37,649 nt of DNA from assembly GCA_029067805.1 (NCBI GenBank), contig JAIEDW010000222.1:1-37649 (forward strand), given 5' to 3'. Each line of letters opens with the position of its first letter. The stretch's first letter is position 1. A model generated the notes under the pieces. It was not told where the DNA came from. It saw only the letters and a program-made list of their open reading frames with translations, and ran no database searches. The translations under genes and the position numbers were made by a program. The DNA comes from Lachnospiraceae bacterium. Lineage in GTDB: Bacteria > Bacillota > Clostridia > Lachnospirales > Lachnospiraceae. This document shows, one piece after another, positions 24,967-31,241 of this stretch.

Positions 24967-26196
24967 TCACATTTCTCCATTCATCATTAATTTTTCAATA
25001 TTGGTAAGTTTATCAACCTTTACAAGTTTTCCGACAACCTTTTCTTTTTCTTCGCCGATTTCCTCAAACTGGTAAATCGGCTTTGTCACAATCTCACCGT
25101 CTTCAAATCCGAGAATTTCCGTAATCTCAAGCACTCTGCGGGATTTGTCGCGCAGTCTGCCCAAATGAACAATGAGATCCACTCCTGACGCAATCTGTCT
25201 TCTCACAGCAGCAAGCGGAAGTTCCATTCCCATAAGTACCATTGTTTCCAGTCGGGAAAGCATATCCCTCGACGAGTTTGCGTGGCCTGTTGAAAGGCTT
25301 CCGTCATGTCCGGTATTGAGCGCCTGTAACATATCAATCGCCTCACTGCCGCGCACTTCCCCGACAATTATTCTGTCGGGTCGCATACGAAGCGCTGATT
25401 TGATTAAATCCCGGATAGTAATTGCTTTTGCGCCCTCCGTATTCGCGTTTCGCGTTTCAAGCCGTACAAGATTTGGGATTTCCTGTAACTGCAATTCCGC
25501 GGAGTCTTCTATTGTTATGATTCGTTCACTTTTTGGAATATCATGCGATAATGCATTTAGAAATGTAGTTTTACCGGAACCGGTTCCACCACTGATAAAG
25601 ATATTGTAGCCTGCTCTCACAAGCTTTGAAAGTTCTCCCGCAGCTTCTTCTGTGATTGATCCAAAACTGATCAAGTCACTCATGGAAATCGGTTTGTCGG
25701 GAAATCGTCGTATTGTCACGATTGGTCCGTTTAACGCCACGGGCGCAAGCACAATATTGACACGCGCACCGTTTTCAAGCCTTGCATCTACAATTGGAGA
25801 TGCCTCGTTTACAGCCCTGTTGCATTTTGCCACTATCTGCTGTATTACGTCCTCAAGCTTTTCCTTCGTATCAAAATGTTTCTCCCATTGATAAATACGC
25901 CCCGCCTTTTCCACAAAAATATTGTCGGTGCCGTTTATCATGATTTCCGTCACATCATCGGAATCGATAAGCTCTTGCAGTACATCCATTTTTCTTATCG
26001 AATAAAAGACACTTTTTCCAAGTTCCTCTCGCTGTTCCAGAGAAAGTCCGACGCTTCGCCCAAGTCCCAAGACCAGATCATCAATCATCTCCTGTATCTC
26101 CTCATCAGATACCTCCCGTGACAAGTCGATGCGTTCCCGGACACTGCTTGCAATCTGTTGTTTACAAGTTTCATATACCGTTAATTGATTGTCCAT
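24967..26196 (-). CDS. CpaF/TadA secretion ATPase
   Basis: FISGGTGSGKTTFLNAL Walker A, RIITIEDSAELQL, RPDRIIVGEVRGSEAIDMLQALNTGHDGSLSTGHANS. Confidence 0.97.
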   Translation of the reverse strand: MDNQLTVYETCKQQIASSVRERIDLSREVSDEEIQEMIDDLVLGLGRSVGLSLEQREELGKSVFYSIRKMDVLQELIDSDDVTEIMINGTDNIFVEKAGRIYQWEKHFDTKEKLEDVIQQIVAKCNRAVNEASPIVDARLENGARVNIVLAPVALNGPIVTIRRFPDKPISMSDLISFGSITEEAAGELSKLVRAGYNIFISGGTGSGKTTFLNALSHDIPKSERIITIEDSAELQLQEIPNLVRLETRNANTEGAKAITIRDLIKSALRMRPDRIIVGEVRGSEAIDMLQALNTGHDGSLSTGHANSSRDMLSRLETMVLMGMELPLAAVRRQIASGVDLIVHLGRLRDKSRRVLEITEILGFEDGEIVTKPIYQFEEIGEEKEKVVGKLVKVDKLTNIEKLMMNGEM

Positions 26197-27190
26197 TTTG
26201 AGTCAAAACTCCTTTCATATACGCTCCAAGCTGTGAAACGGAAAGCTGCTCCAGGTTGAACGGATATTCTTTCCAATCTTTCATCAAATGGAAGTGCACA
26301 CTTTTTTTAAGCACCGCACCAAGCTCCTTTTTTTGCATCAGCTGTTCAAACTGTGTACGCATCGCGCTTGAAAGACTGTCCTTTCCGGATAAAATATAAG
26401 ATGTATCACTTCTCTCAAGCAAATGATAAAATCCTTTGCATGTTTCGGTTAAATCCACCACAATATATGCGTAGTCACTGCTGTATAAGAGTGCATCAAA
26501 ACATCTTTTCCATTCATCCTCCTCAATTTTCATCAAATCGGAATAATCAAGAGCGGGCGGCAGATAATCAACGCCGTGTATCGTTCTTTTGATTCCCTCA
26601 AGCTTGTATAAAAGCTTGTCTGAATGTTTCAAGACGAAATACATAAAATCAGTTATATCCGCCTCGTATTTTATCCCCAAAAGCTGTTCAAAACCCGAAA
26701 ACGGCTGCATACTGATATAAAGCGTTTTATTTCCCATATCGGAAAACACCTGTGCTACGGTAAGCGCCGCGATACTCTGCCCTTTATGTCTGTCGGGAGC
26801 GTAAAAACTGATAAGCTTTGAGGGTGTTCGTCCTTTGCTTTCAATGCTCCTACATTCCTCATCTAACGCAAACGCATCAAGAACCTGACTCATTAGCCGA
26901 TCTACCGATTGATACTTTTCCACTATACTGTATCCTGTGATCCCTACAAGCCCGTTTTCTTGTAAAATGAAGATTTTCTGTGCATTTATATTTCTGACGC
27001 TTGTGTCATAAATCCCTTCACTTACAAGAACAATCTCAAACGGTTCTTCTTTTGACGCCGCTTTTGCTTCCTTTATGGAATCAAAGACCATAATTTCAAA
27101 CCCCGCAGGATTTTTCTTCACAAGATACGCCTGCATCATCGAAAGATACTCTCGGTCCTTATCACATATTGCCAGTCTTTTTTTACTCAT
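26171..27190 (-). CDS. CpaE/TadZ-like protein with receiver-like N-terminus and MinD-like fold
   Basis: MSKKRLAICDKDREYLSMMQAYL...FEIVLVSEGI receiver-like; SFYAPDRHKGQSIAALTVAQVFSDMGNKTLYISMQP MinD-like with deviant P-loop; adjacent to cpaF. Confidence 0.75.
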   Translation of the reverse strand: MSKKRLAICDKDREYLSMMQAYLVKKNPAGFEIMVFDSIKEAKAASKEEPFEIVLVSEGIYDTSVRNINAQKIFILQENGLVGITGYSIVEKYQSVDRLMSQVLDAFALDEECRSIESKGRTPSKLISFYAPDRHKGQSIAALTVAQVFSDMGNKTLYISMQPFSGFEQLLGIKYEADITDFMYFVLKHSDKLLYKLEGIKRTIHGVDYLPPALDYSDLMKIEEDEWKRCFDALLYSSDYAYIVVDLTETCKGFYHLLERSDTSYILSGKDSLSSAMRTQFEQLMQKKELGAVLKKSVHFHLMKDWKEYPFNLEQLSVSQLGAYMKGVLTQNGQSINGI

Positions 27191-27323
27191 GCCTATTTGA
27201 TATTCCTTTCTTATTTTGTAAAATATATCTTTATAAAAAGATTTGTTCACTTATATCTTGACAAAGTTGCTTTCACACGATATTCTTATAAGCAAAGAAG
27301 GAACGAAGTTTACTACCGTACAG

Positions 27324-27857
27324 CTATTGCTCATGCGGCCTGCTCGTTTCTTTTTTTATTCTTACAAGGTCATATAAATATAACTTTCCGTCTTCATCAC
27401 ACCTTACAAGCATTCTTGTTGAAAAAATATTGTACCGCTCCAAATTTCCTAGCTCGTCGTAAACAGGTATTCCGAAACGCGTATTATATCGATACCAACC
27501 ATACTTTGCCTTTGATCCATGCTTATGATTATAATCAGGATATTGTGCCTTGTCTGCTGCAATTTGAACTAATTCATTTATTGCAGAAGGAATGTTTGCT
27601 TTTGCTTTCTTATTTGCGCCTTTCAAATTTTTTGTATCCTTGGAATGACTGAATTCATCTGGGAAGTCGGATCCAATATAGATTTTTTCGGAAGTCTGCT
27701 CAATTTCAAAATATGTTCCAATATATTCTTTTAAATACTCTTCCACTTTTGTCCAATCAACTTCTTTTCGCGACCGAAATCTTATATCGTTAATAAGAAC
27801 AATTTTTCTTCCGTCCAAATCTGTTATAACGTTCACATTTTTATCCACTGCATTCAT
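27324..27857 (-). CDS. LPD3-like (large polyvalent-protein-associated) standalone domain protein
   Basis: DLDGRKIVLINDIRFRSRKEVDWTKVEEYLKEYIGTYFEIEQTSEKIYIGSDFPDEF...LKGANKKAKAN...GWYRYNTRFGIPVYDELGNLERYNIFSTRMLVRCDEDGKLYLYDLVRIKKETS; start set at MNAVDKN. Confidence 0.6.
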   Translation of the reverse strand: MNAVDKNVNVITDLDGRKIVLINDIRFRSRKEVDWTKVEEYLKEYIGTYFEIEQTSEKIYIGSDFPDEFSHSKDTKNLKGANKKAKANIPSAINELVQIAADKAQYPDYNHKHGSKAKYGWYRYNTRFGIPVYDELGNLERYNIFSTRMLVRCDEDGKLYLYDLVRIKKETSRPHEQ

Positions 27858-27867
27858 TTTTAATCTT

Positions 27868-28368
27868 CTAATACCCCCCAAAACACATGATCATCAAGCT
27901 TATAAACGCGGGTATCGACAGTCTTATTACACATTTTTTATTTTTCTTATCTACAATGTAATTGTCAATGCTGCCTGTGAGCGCCGCTTTTTTTAGATAC
28001 TGTCCAAGATAAAACAATCGTTGTCTGCTCTCGCGAAAGAAAAGCATTTTTATGACAGAAAGGACTGCGGCAAGCGCAAAAGTGACGATCAGATAGGCTA
28101 TTAACTGCTTCTCCTGTATAAAACAGGCTGTCATCATAAGCAGTTTGATGTCTCCGGCGCCCAGCCCTCCGATGAGGTAAAATGGGTAAAATGCCAGAAA
28201 AATAATGATCATCGCAATACATGCCCCAAGCATTTCAACGACAGAATATGACATACATGTCATAATCAATCCGGACACGATTCCCACAAGGATACATAGA
28301 TTAGGTATTTTGTAAGACCGCAAATCCATGCATACGGCAACACAAAACACACCTATGAGAATTGCCAT
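27868..28368 (-). CDS. Prepilin peptidase (A24), first gene of Tad locus
   Basis: CMDLRSYKIPNLCI and GGLGAGDIKLLMM catalytic Asp motifs, polytopic. Confidence 0.92.
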   Translation of the reverse strand: MAILIGVFCVAVCMDLRSYKIPNLCILVGIVSGLIMTCMSYSVVEMLGACIAMIIIFLAFYPFYLIGGLGAGDIKLLMMTACFIQEKQLIAYLIVTFALAAVLSVIKMLFFRESRQRLFYLGQYLKKAALTGSIDNYIVDKKNKKCVIRLSIPAFISLMIMCFGGY

Positions 28369-28651: not shown

Positions 28652-28708
28652 ATCGAGTGCATACGTATATATACGTTGTACACTCGATTACAAAAAGCTT
28701 CGCTTTTT
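28652..28708 (+). promoter_or_regulatory. Leader hairpins upstream of DUF2508 gene
   Basis: ATCGAGTG...CACTCGAT (28652-28688) enclosing 14-bp palindrome ACGTATATATACGT; then AAAAAGCttcGCTTTTT (28692-28708) followed by ATTTT. Confidence 0.5.
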
Positions 28709-28753
28709 ATTTTAATGCTTTACGCTGTCGCAATTTCAAGAAAGGACTTTTTT

Positions 28754-29128
28754 ATGAAAACATATTTCAGCCTTAAAAAGATACTTAATCCCTCTTCTTC
28801 CGGACAACCAAATGCTGCCGTGGCGCCGGCTGCGACAACGCCGCGCGAGGTTCTTCTTTCGGATATTACCCAGACGCAGAGAGCGCTCGAAATCGCATAC
28901 TCGGGTTTTGACAATGTGACAGATCCCGACTTAATTGACTGCTACATCTACGAAATCGATTCTGCGCTGAAACGATACCGCTTTTTGCTTCAGCAGGCGG
29001 AACGGATGCAACTCTACGAGCAGTTTACGTCCTGTAAAGCCTTTGACGCTTATGAGGAAGATCCACAGGAGGATACGATACCGACCCTTCCGTCTATACC
29101 GTATAACCTCTCCCTGTATCATAATTGA
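28754..29128 (+). CDS. DUF2508 (YaaL-like) family protein
   Basis: LLSDITQTQRALEIAYSGFDNVTDPDLIDCYIYEIDSALKRYRFLLQQAE; start MKTYFSLKK preceded by AAGAAAGGA. Confidence 0.75.
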   Translation: MKTYFSLKKILNPSSSGQPNAAVAPAATTPREVLLSDITQTQRALEIAYSGFDNVTDPDLIDCYIYEIDSALKRYRFLLQQAERMQLYEQFTSCKAFDAYEEDPQEDTIPTLPSIPYNLSLYHN

Positions 29129-29570
29129 CAAGACTTTCGTTGACATCTTCCCTTCCGTATGTAAGACCGGCATAAACATCCTGAATATTGTCCATAAGCG
29201 GCCCCGATTCATCCTGCTCGCTTACAGTGGCATACGCGTCGTGAAGCTTTGTGAAAATCGTTTTTAAGGCGTCAAGATTCTCTGTCTTGTTTCCGAAAAT
29301 ATCGTTTGCAAGCTCCCTGTCCGCAAAACAATAGATCGCAAACAAATTCTTGGAAATCGCATACTCAAAATTTAGGCTTGTGCGCATCTCGCTAACGCAA
29401 TCTCTTGCAAGCTCCAGATTGCGCACAAACTCCTGTGTATCCTCCGCTTCATATGCCATCTTAGCATCTTCCAGATACACCAAAAGCATCTCATACAAAA
29501 TCACAACAAGCTGCGTACGGTTCGCCTGCGTAATCCGCCTTGTAAACATCTGTTTGTTTTCCTTTGTCAT
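29094..29570 (-). CDS. fliS: Flagellar chaperone FliS-like protein
   Basis: MTKENKQMFTRRITQANRTQLVVILYEMLLVYLEDAKMAYE...LNFEYAISKNLFAIYCFADREL; directly downstream of flagellin. Confidence 0.75.
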   Translation of the reverse strand: MTKENKQMFTRRITQANRTQLVVILYEMLLVYLEDAKMAYEAEDTQEFVRNLELARDCVSEMRTSLNFEYAISKNLFAIYCFADRELANDIFGNKTENLDALKTIFTKLHDAYATVSEQDESGPLMDNIQDVYAGLTYGREDVNESLVNYDTGRGYTV

Positions 29571-29621
29571 TTTGCCCTCCATACTGCCGCTATGCGAATT
29601 TTTGAAATTTTCTCACACTAT

Positions 29622-31241
29622 TTACTGTAATAACTGCAACACTTGCTGCGGTCTTTCATTTGCCTGTGCAAGCATTGATGTTGATGCCTGTACAAGCACT
29701 TGAACCGTTGTATATTCTGTCATTTCTTCCGCCATATCAACGTCCATAATACGAGAATAAGCCGCCGTCATGTTTTCCTCTGTTGTGTCAAGATTTGTGA
29801 CTGTGTGCTCAAGACGGTTTGTGTATGCACCGATCTTCGCACGCACTGCGGAAAGATAATTGATTGCCCTGCCGACAATATTGATTGATTCCGTCGCTGA
29901 ATCCTCTGTTCTCACATCAAGCTTATTCACACCCAGATATATCGTGTTGAGATCCGGAATTTCAATATCCAGATACTGTCCCTCGTTTGCACCGACCTGA
30001 ACGCGCATCGCACCCATTCCCGTAAGATTAATCGCAACGCAGTCATCCTTGTCGCTGCTGCCGACCGTATAAACCGTATCGGAAATGATCTCTTTCTGAT
30101 AAAGATAATCCTGCATTGTCACCGTCGGATCGCTCAAATTTAAATCCAGTGGCAGATCAGTTCCCGCCGAACTGTCATATGTAATCGTCATCTTGCCATT
30201 CGCATCACAGGTCATATCCGTTATCTTTACATTGCTTTCGCCTTTTGCGACAAAGTAATCGCTCAGCACTTCCGCTACATATTTATAATTTTCCGAAGAA
30301 ACATGATCCAGAGCAGTATCATCACCTACCGTAAATTTACCAATCATATAGCGCTCTCCGTCCGGTGCGGTAACGTATACTTTTTGGTATGTACTTGTTG
30401 AATAAGTTACCGTACTGACCTCGGTAGAAGCAAGTCCCGTTGCTTCTAACGCTTCCTTATCGTTGACGGCAAGTTTCACTTCAAAATCGTTTGATGCTTT
30501 TATGACCACATATTCATCTTCGATCGACACAAGCGAATCGCTCGGAAATGCCTTCAAACCGGTTGAATTTTCGGCATCCTTTTTATAAGAATCCAAATCC
30601 TTCTCCATCACAAGCGCGTCTCTGACATCATCGGCGCTGCTGATCTGAAAACTTTCTTTATTTTCAACCTTGGCAACAGATTTGCCGTTGTTGGCATAGG
30701 TGGTGATACTTTTTTCTGTATAAGTATATTTAATCGTTCCGATAACATATGTACCGCTTATAACACCGTCCGAATAAGACATTACTTTTATATTTTCCGT
30801 ATTGGTATATCCCTTATACGCAAATGTTCCGTCGAGAAGCGTTTGCGCATTGAACTGTGTCGTGTCCGCGATTCTGTCAAGTTCTTGAATCAGCTGGTCA
30901 ATCTCAACCTGTATCTTTGCTCTGTCATCCTCGGAGTTCGTGCCGTTTGCCGATTGAACCGAAAGTTCATTCATTCTCTGAAGAATATCGTGCATCTCCG
31001 TCATCGCACCATCAGCTGTATTTACCACGGAAATACCGTCGTTTGCGTTTTCATTTGCACGCACGATGCCTCTGATCTGCGCCTTCATTTTTCTTGCGAT
31101 CGCAAGTCCTGCGGCGTTGTCCGATGCTCTGTTGATTTTATAGCCGCTCGAAAGTCTTAAAGTTGATTCCGAAAGTCTGGAATCGTTATTACCCAATGAA
31201 TTCTTTGCCACAATCGATGAAACGTTAAAATTAATTCTCAT
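29622..31241 (-). CDS. Flagellin with enlarged central region
   Basis: N-term MRINFNVSSIVAKNSLGNNDSRLSESTLRLSSGYKINRASDNAAGLAIARKMKAQIRG; C-term VRAKIGAYTNRLEHTVTNLDTTEENMTAAYSRIMDVDMAEEM...SMLAQANERPQQVLQLLQ. Confidence 0.97.
   Translation of the reverse strand: MRINFNVSSIVAKNSLGNNDSRLSESTLRLSSGYKINRASDNAAGLAIARKMKAQIRGIVRANENANDGISVVNTADGAMTEMHDILQRMNELSVQSANGTNSEDDRAKIQVEIDQLIQELDRIADTTQFNAQTLLDGTFAYKGYTNTENIKVMSYSDGVISGTYVIGTIKYTYTEKSITTYANNGKSVAKVENKESFQISSADDVRDALVMEKDLDSYKKDAENSTGLKAFPSDSLVSIEDEYVVIKASNDFEVKLAVNDKEALEATGLASTEVSTVTYSTSTYQKVYVTAPDGERYMIGKFTVGDDTALDHVSSENYKYVAEVLSDYFVAKGESNVKITDMTCDANGKMTITYDSSAGTDLPLDLNLSDPTVTMQDYLYQKEIISDTVYTVGSSDKDDCVAINLTGMGAMRVQVGANEGQYLDIEIPDLNTIYLGVNKLDVRTEDSATESINIVGRAINYLSAVRAKIGAYTNRLEHTVTNLDTTEENMTAAYSRIMDVDMAEEMTEYTTVQVLVQASTSMLAQANERPQQVLQLLQ

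Follow-up and report, generated by a model that had tools for sequence, protein, structure and literature searches.

A predicted mobile LPD3-like gene and its convergent structured RNA in a Lachnospiraceae Tad operon: a candidate toxin-antitoxin-like module

Introduction

Why does a gene for a charged, globular protein stand between two genes of a Tad pilus operon, and what might it do there? The question is raised by a window, i.e., the whole stretch of 37,649 nucleotides that was analysed, from a member of the Lachnospiraceae. A sequence-only reading of this DNA had noted a likeness of the protein to LPD3, and it had suggested a domesticated phage or toxin module coupled to pilus production, possibly in DNA uptake, contact-dependent delivery or immunity. 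LPD3 is one of about 40 domains of polyvalent proteins with unknown function (PMC5512222).

The gene and its place in the Tad operon

The gene, here called X, encodes an LPD3-like protein of 177 aa and occupies positions 27324–27857 of the minus strand, with its ATG start codon at 27857 and its stop codon at 27326–27324 (open reading frame and translation, alignment of 36 sequences, AlphaFold2, Foldseek). The coordinates, the length and the motifs quoted in the sequence-only reading are all present as claimed, and only the strand had been left unstated. X is a real gene rather than a chance reading frame, since homologs with 43–83% identity were found in 28 loci of a species-level genome collection, mostly from Lachnospiraceae with 49–83% identity, as well as in 27 of 98 related genomes, and since 21 columns are invariant in the alignment of the 36 sequences. 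The invariant polar residues are E68, S72, K86, N88, H113, N143, Y162, and D163, and the protein ends in a tail with the sequence KKETS.

As described before, X lies directly behind the prepilin peptidase gene (27868–28368, minus strand; Peptidase_A24, E 1.8e-13), 10 nt past its stop codon, and is followed by a TadZ-like gene (26171–27250, minus strand; TadZ-like_ARD below cut-off). Both genes border the insertion and lie outside the module discussed here. The TadZ-like gene probably starts at the ATG at 27190 and not at the GTG at 27250, since its relatives align from residue ~20. The run on this far side of X reads TadZ-TadA-TadB-TadC-DUF5702. Genes for FliS and flagellin adjoin the Tad locus (28676–31241); the order FliS-prepilin peptidase-TadZ recurs in related genomes, and the adjacency of flagellin and Tad genes is unusual.

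Being codirectional with two Tad genes and so close to the peptidase gene, X could be taken for a functional accessory of the pilus. This is hardly credible and largely refuted. Of the related genomes, 19 share the prepilin peptidase-TadZ-TadA order, most of them with FliS upstream; in all 19, the peptidase-TadZ junction measures 0–91 bp and is devoid of X. No Tad genes were found near the other X loci. By conserved synteny, X is thus not a component of the Tad pilus, and the proposed link of X to pilus production, to DNA uptake or to contact-dependent delivery is not supported. The sequence-only reading had named absence from other Tad loci, as for a random recent insertion, as the outcome that would speak against it, and this is what was found. 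The reading of the operon is to be corrected accordingly: X is an incidental passenger there.

Spread and mobility

Several of the related genomes carry two or three copies of X, and many have decayed copies. Among 399 genomes sampled more widely from the phylum, X was confined to members of the Lachnospiraceae. A second copy, 52% identical, lies on contig C105 of the genome that contains the window (locus L002; G000:C105, ~1220–1741). A 122-bp direct repeat of 95% identity borders this copy: the 3' end of the upstream gene recurs after X, which hints at a route of cassette insertion.

The surroundings of X vary by locus. Its neighbours include genes for NAD synthase, a nitroreductase, a ComEC-like protein, a xanthine/uracil-type permease, a GNAT acetyltransferase, a tRNA methyltransferase, and a TraG/VirB4-type conjugation ATPase. 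No neighbour genes are conserved beyond close relatives, and the DNA upstream of X is unrelated between distant copies. In loci L004 and L005, X directly follows the TraG/VirB4-type ATPase gene. Loci L006–L008 keep remnants of the end of this VirB4/TraG-type gene. In L004–L008 and L019, a hairpin (CGTATCAGATGTCGAAAGATGTCTGATACG in L004) lies upstream of the ribosome-binding site of X. X was also found in six IMG/VR contigs and in one unannotated phage-labelled record, and it had no match in a plasmid collection. No transposon ends and no common insertion motif were seen in the flanks of X, and no transposase or integrase recurs beside it in the loci compared. The mobile-element ancestry proposed earlier is borne out by the viral contigs, by the position after the conjugation ATPase gene and by the fold discussed below. 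From its distribution, X is judged to be a mobile passenger of mobile-element ancestry, restricted to Lachnospiraceae, that has landed in the Tad operon.

In some copies, X is combined with a helix-turn-helix (HTH) domain. Such a domain is fused to its N terminus in L015, L018, L031, and L032, and one of a different type in L141, whilst an HTH protein is encoded beside X in L010 and L012. Pfam confirmed HTH_3 in L010, L018, and L032, and the other assignments were read from the sequence. Apparently, the XRE/HTH_3 fusions arose at least twice independently.

Relation to LPD3

The LPD3 likeness claimed in the sequence-only reading could not be found with Pfam on the protein of the window, which gave no usable family match in Pfam, NCBIfam or PHROGs. 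The curated cut-off of the LPD3 family (PF18798) is 27 bits; the window protein did not match the model at all, and those of its relatives that did match stayed below this value. Among the 36 members, the LPD3 HMM matched three, with a best E-value of 0.053. When the model was scanned over the whole genomes of 60 relatives, independently of X, two of the three matches were divergent X copies (G003:C96 and G018:C47), scoring 19.0 and 19.2 bits, under the cut-off. The copy in G018:C47 aligns to positions 9–114 of the 114 HMM positions, and LPD3 positions 41–111 were also matched in a divergent member. Conversely, in other Clostridia the X profile reaches parts of open frames of 1080–2805 codons (E 2e-6 to 3e-5). 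In one of these frames, LPD3 positions 3–113 are matched, again under the cut-off. A direct comparison of X with a small and poor LPD3 alignment by hhalign gave a probability of 3% and an E-value of 0.014, over the helical part only. The HMM search that the sequence-only reading had recommended thus reaches LPD3 only below the threshold and in divergent members.

The predicted structure adds to this picture. The AlphaFold2 model of X, built with 36 sequences, is confident (pLDDT 90.6, pTM 0.86). Compared by Foldseek with the viral structures in BFVD, it aligns over its full length with the LPD3 regions of phage polyvalent proteins, the best matches having E-values of 2.7e-9 to 2e-7, TMq values of 0.66–0.71 and a probability of 1.00. 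Ten matches have an E-value below 0.001 (TMq 0.51–0.71), nearly all of them to large phage proteins, including polyvalent ones, and A0A8S5TZQ3 and A0A8S5N3G2, both named LPD3, are among the top eleven. By this comparison, X has the fold of the LPD3 regions in polyvalent proteins. The part that corresponds to the Pfam LPD3 core, judged from the secondary structure of the model and from the sub-threshold HMM matches, comprises residues ~64–170 (27348–27668, minus strand), with helices at 65–98 and strands at 101–106, 121–133, 139–153, and 159–169. Since the confident model matches phage LPD3 regions over its whole length, X is regarded as a divergent, stand-alone relative of LPD3 by remote homology, and not as a formal member of the Pfam family. 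The claimed likeness thus holds at the level of the fold and of the weak HMM matches.

A nuclease-like fold, which the sequence-only reading had proposed to look for, did not emerge. The PDB contained no match by sequence and no convincing match by fold, i.e., only NTF2-like structures with a TM-score of ~0.27, and an identity as a BECR nuclease is, therefore, not claimed. Searches of Pfam, NCBIfam, PHROGs, and PDB sequences revealed no resemblance to any known toxin. PADLOC, applied to the 36 members, produced a match of 0.0078 to a candidate family in three of them, which was discarded.

A convergent structured RNA gene

The most informative feature of the locus had been passed over in the sequence-only reading. 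When the flanks of X copies were compared, ~75 nt just past its stop codon proved strikingly conserved. In the window, this segment contains a putative gene of ~62 nt for a structured non-coding RNA (27296–27357, plus strand), the 3' half of which is antisense to the last codons and the stop codon of X. It is preceded by a predicted promoter with a -35 box, TTGACA (27258–27263, plus strand), and, after a spacer of 17, a -10 box, TATTCT (27281–27286, plus strand), which was recognized in the downstream flank. Covariation and folding define an outer stem, P1, with its 5' arm at 27297–27309, and an inner hairpin, P2/P3, at 27316–27338 (27316–27320 pairing with 27334–27338, and 27322–27324 with 27329–27331). 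The 3' arm of P1 and a U-tract, together resembling an intrinsic terminator, lie at 27342–27357, inside the KKETS codons of X, as read from the flank and from folding; all these elements are on the plus strand. The general layout is the same across copies: TTGACA-17-TATNNT, a hairpin at the distance of a transcription start, and an end of T6–7 inside the last codons of X.

The position of the promoter is conserved in 46 of 49 loci, where a score of at least 9/12 was found at the required place, vs 5.5% of shuffles; for at least 10/12, the figures are 41 of 49 loci and 0.9%. In these 46 loci, the predicted RNA start is within a few nt of the base of the hairpin. A covariance model, R1, built on 21 sequences, matched all 50 sources searched, including divergent ones, and scored 89.7 bits in the window. 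In an alignment of 47 distinct RNA sequences, which was fitted to the structure, 97.9% of the cells are paired and nine of 17 pairs show two-sided changes (24 cells); an alignment based on sequence only already gives 96.9% and five such pairs. None of 500 shuffles reached any of the measures, and slid controls were 51–64% paired. A MAFFT alignment (A3) was kept out of the covariation analysis since it misaligned the P1 arm in short variants. The inner stems P2/P3, which are not needed for termination, covary as well.

The RNA is assigned to the strand antisense to X because its G-U pairs fit only there: ~105 of 748 cells are G-U on the modelled strand, and on the opposite strand they would turn into A-C mismatches. 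In 39 of 43 sequences, the modelled strand also gives the better fold (mean -18.7 vs -13.0 kcal/mol), and the window copy has a fold z of -3.0. In addition, the coding sequence of X is constrained where the two genes overlap. At shared amino acids, codon identity amounts to 47.7% in residues 1–165 vs 90.7% in residues 166–177, and AAA at residue 168 and GAA at residue 170 are present in all 36 X sequences. Because of this jump, the KKETS tail may owe much of its apparent conservation as protein to conservation of the RNA. The overlap is unusual in that a single DNA segment codes for the C terminus of X and for a terminator stem of the RNA.

Since promoter, covariation, strand-specific G-U pairs, synonymous constraint, and fold z agree, the segment is considered to be an RNA gene linked to X, with selection acting on its strand, its structure, and its promoter. 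Rfam 15 gave only chance-level scores, far under the gathering threshold, and a new family of structured non-coding RNA, of which expression is presumed, is well supported. Neither X nor the RNA falls into a family described in Pfam, NCBIfam, Rfam or PADLOC, and no description of either was found in the open-access literature.

Two other views of the hairpin have to be weighed here. It could be a DNA site that serves to mobilize the X cassette, like an attC site or a transposon end, as X moves as a compact cassette with the hairpin at its 3' end and one copy is bordered by the 122-bp repeat described above. A conserved promoter at fixed spacing, strand-specific G-U pairing and a U-tract speak against such a site, and the common target motif and the recurring transposase or integrase are missing from the loci compared, which makes this view very unlikely. 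Alternatively, the RNA could act as a cis-acting brake on expression or as a shared bidirectional terminator, and the mobile-element gene that it serves would not encode a toxin. X might then be, e.g., an invasion or counter-defence factor, the copy number or dose of which is limited by the antisense RNA, as by RNA-OUT in IS10. X is indeed mobile, multicopy and LPD3-like, it follows a conjugation ATPase gene in two loci, and the hairpin read on the sense strand is likewise T-rich on its 3' side. However, neither a brake nor a terminator requires the near-consensus promoter in 46 of 49 loci or the conservation of the non-coding loop, which is 96% identical in clade 1, where the proteins are mostly 65–83% identical, and the G-U pairs favor the antisense strand. 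We consider this alternative rather unlikely.

Linkage of the RNA to X

The RNA model matched 27 of the 98 relatives, the same count as for X, with nearly every match at the 3' end of X. Where the scan of these genomes missed the RNA at an X copy, it was present on inspection; every copy of X has the RNA gene converging on and overlapping its 3' end. RNA copies without an X match mostly lie beside X remnants, and several of those keep the promoter. In 41 loci with an open X frame, the promoter scores at least 9/12 in 40 and 8/12 in the other. A search for the exact RNA pattern in viral contigs yielded nothing, but the covariance model found the RNA in all six X-encoding contigs, and phage-labelled copies of X carry it, too. 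The excess of loci with a dead X and a live RNA may partly reflect the larger size of X. At L138 (G037:C21, ~1348–1408), an RNA hairpin occurs without X and without a promoter; it is lengthened into an inverted repeat (TCTGTATAATAAAAAAG...CTTCTTTTTGTTATTATACAGA) and was possibly reused as a terminator.

Co-inheritance would also suit a ribonucleoprotein in which the RNA is the active partner, directed at, e.g., RNA of an invading phage or mobile element, and X its protein cofactor or processing enzyme. The invariant polar residues of X and an unpaired RNA segment, GUUUACUACCGUAC, conserved in clade 1, could be accommodated in such a complex. Nevertheless, no target was identified, and a strict cofactor model does not predict that the RNA persists beside dead X genes. 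A ribonucleoprotein is an improbable explanation.

How the module may work

The reading that we favor, with about an even chance of being correct, is that of a mobile, Lachnospiraceae-restricted, RNA-controlled toxin-antitoxin-like module, in which the toxicity of X, its restraint by the RNA and the route of that restraint are presumed. X, as a soluble protein, and the convergent 62-nt RNA would constitute a mobile two-gene module. The RNA would have a strong promoter of its own, close behind the end of X, and would terminate with its U-tract inside the last X codons. The two would most likely work as an RNA-controlled toxin-antitoxin pair, and X would be released when transcription of the RNA is lost or arrested. 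This reading is favored because the convergent promoters, the near-consensus RNA promoter and the 3' overlap resemble known pairs. The many decayed X copies and the retention of the RNA promoter in 40 of 41 intact ones speak for it as well, and an HTH domain fused to or encoded beside X is as expected of a self-regulated module. Against it, X is far bigger than typical type I toxins and has no homology to known toxins. The RNA, for its part, consists of one hairpin instead of the tandem repeats of type III systems and shows no special signal of complementarity to the 5' region of X.

If the RNA restrains X, we favor an effect on the protein itself or on another target over plain pairing with the X mRNA. 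In cis, the two transcripts would be complementary with any sequence, yet the loop is nearly invariant in clade 1, and P2/P3 covary in spite of being dispensable for termination. A more specific proposal, which we hold at somewhat short of an even chance, is that an RNA antisense to the C-terminal codons of a protein with an LPD3 fold binds and neutralizes, or guides, that very protein, as a hitherto undescribed conflict module of Lachnospiraceae. If true, this would offer the first biochemical handle on the LPD3 domains in polyvalent proteins of phages and conjugative elements. In any case, natural stand-alone LPD3-like proteins with a dedicated structured RNA make the function of LPD3 directly testable.

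Comparison with known systems

Polyvalent proteins are multidomain proteins with 2–15 domains and more than 1000 aa, whereas X is a stand-alone protein of 170–180 aa. Unlike LPD3 as described (PF18798; PMC5512222), X comes with a convergent RNA partner, and its KKETS tail is coded across this RNA.

In the type I toxin-antitoxin system par of pAD1, a convergent sRNA antitoxin is found on the 3' end of the toxin gene (PMC7472228), and the antitoxins of txpA/RatA and bsrG/SR4 likewise are convergent sRNAs that overlap the toxin 3' ends (PMC8167048). The X locus shares with these three systems the convergent promoters, a short structured sRNA and its overlap with the 3' end of a protein gene, as well as terminator stem-loops that are complementary between the two transcripts. 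Also the general type I arrangement, with the sRNA gene convergent with or divergent from the toxin gene, is present at the X/RNA locus, if X is taken as the toxin. In contrast to these three systems, the overlap at X is located in the coding sequence, and the conservation of the loop exceeds what pairing in cis needs. Furthermore, type I toxins usually are hydrophobic peptides of less than ~60 aa, with exceptions such as SymE, whereas X is a charged globular protein of 177 aa. In E. coli, SymE/SymR and RalR/RalA have nuclease-type, non-membrane toxins under the control of antisense RNA (PMC8167048); thus, type I control extends beyond membrane peptides. Neither is related to X in sequence, and SymR pairs in the 5' UTR and not at the 3' end.

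With the type III systems ToxIN, CptIN, and TenpIN, and with AbiF/RCd22 (PMC12373285), the module has in common a conserved structured RNA, a mid-size mobile protein and a phage or ICE context. However, the type III antitoxin RNA consists of tandem repeats upstream of the toxin gene, whilst the RNA described here is a single hairpin, located downstream, convergent and with its own promoter, and X shows no homology to ToxN, CptN, TenpN or AbiF in Pfam. A type III-like neutralization of X by direct RNA binding is suggested only by the conservation of the loop. If this is how the pair works, it would represent a conflict module with a toxin-antitoxin architecture outside both classical type I and type III.
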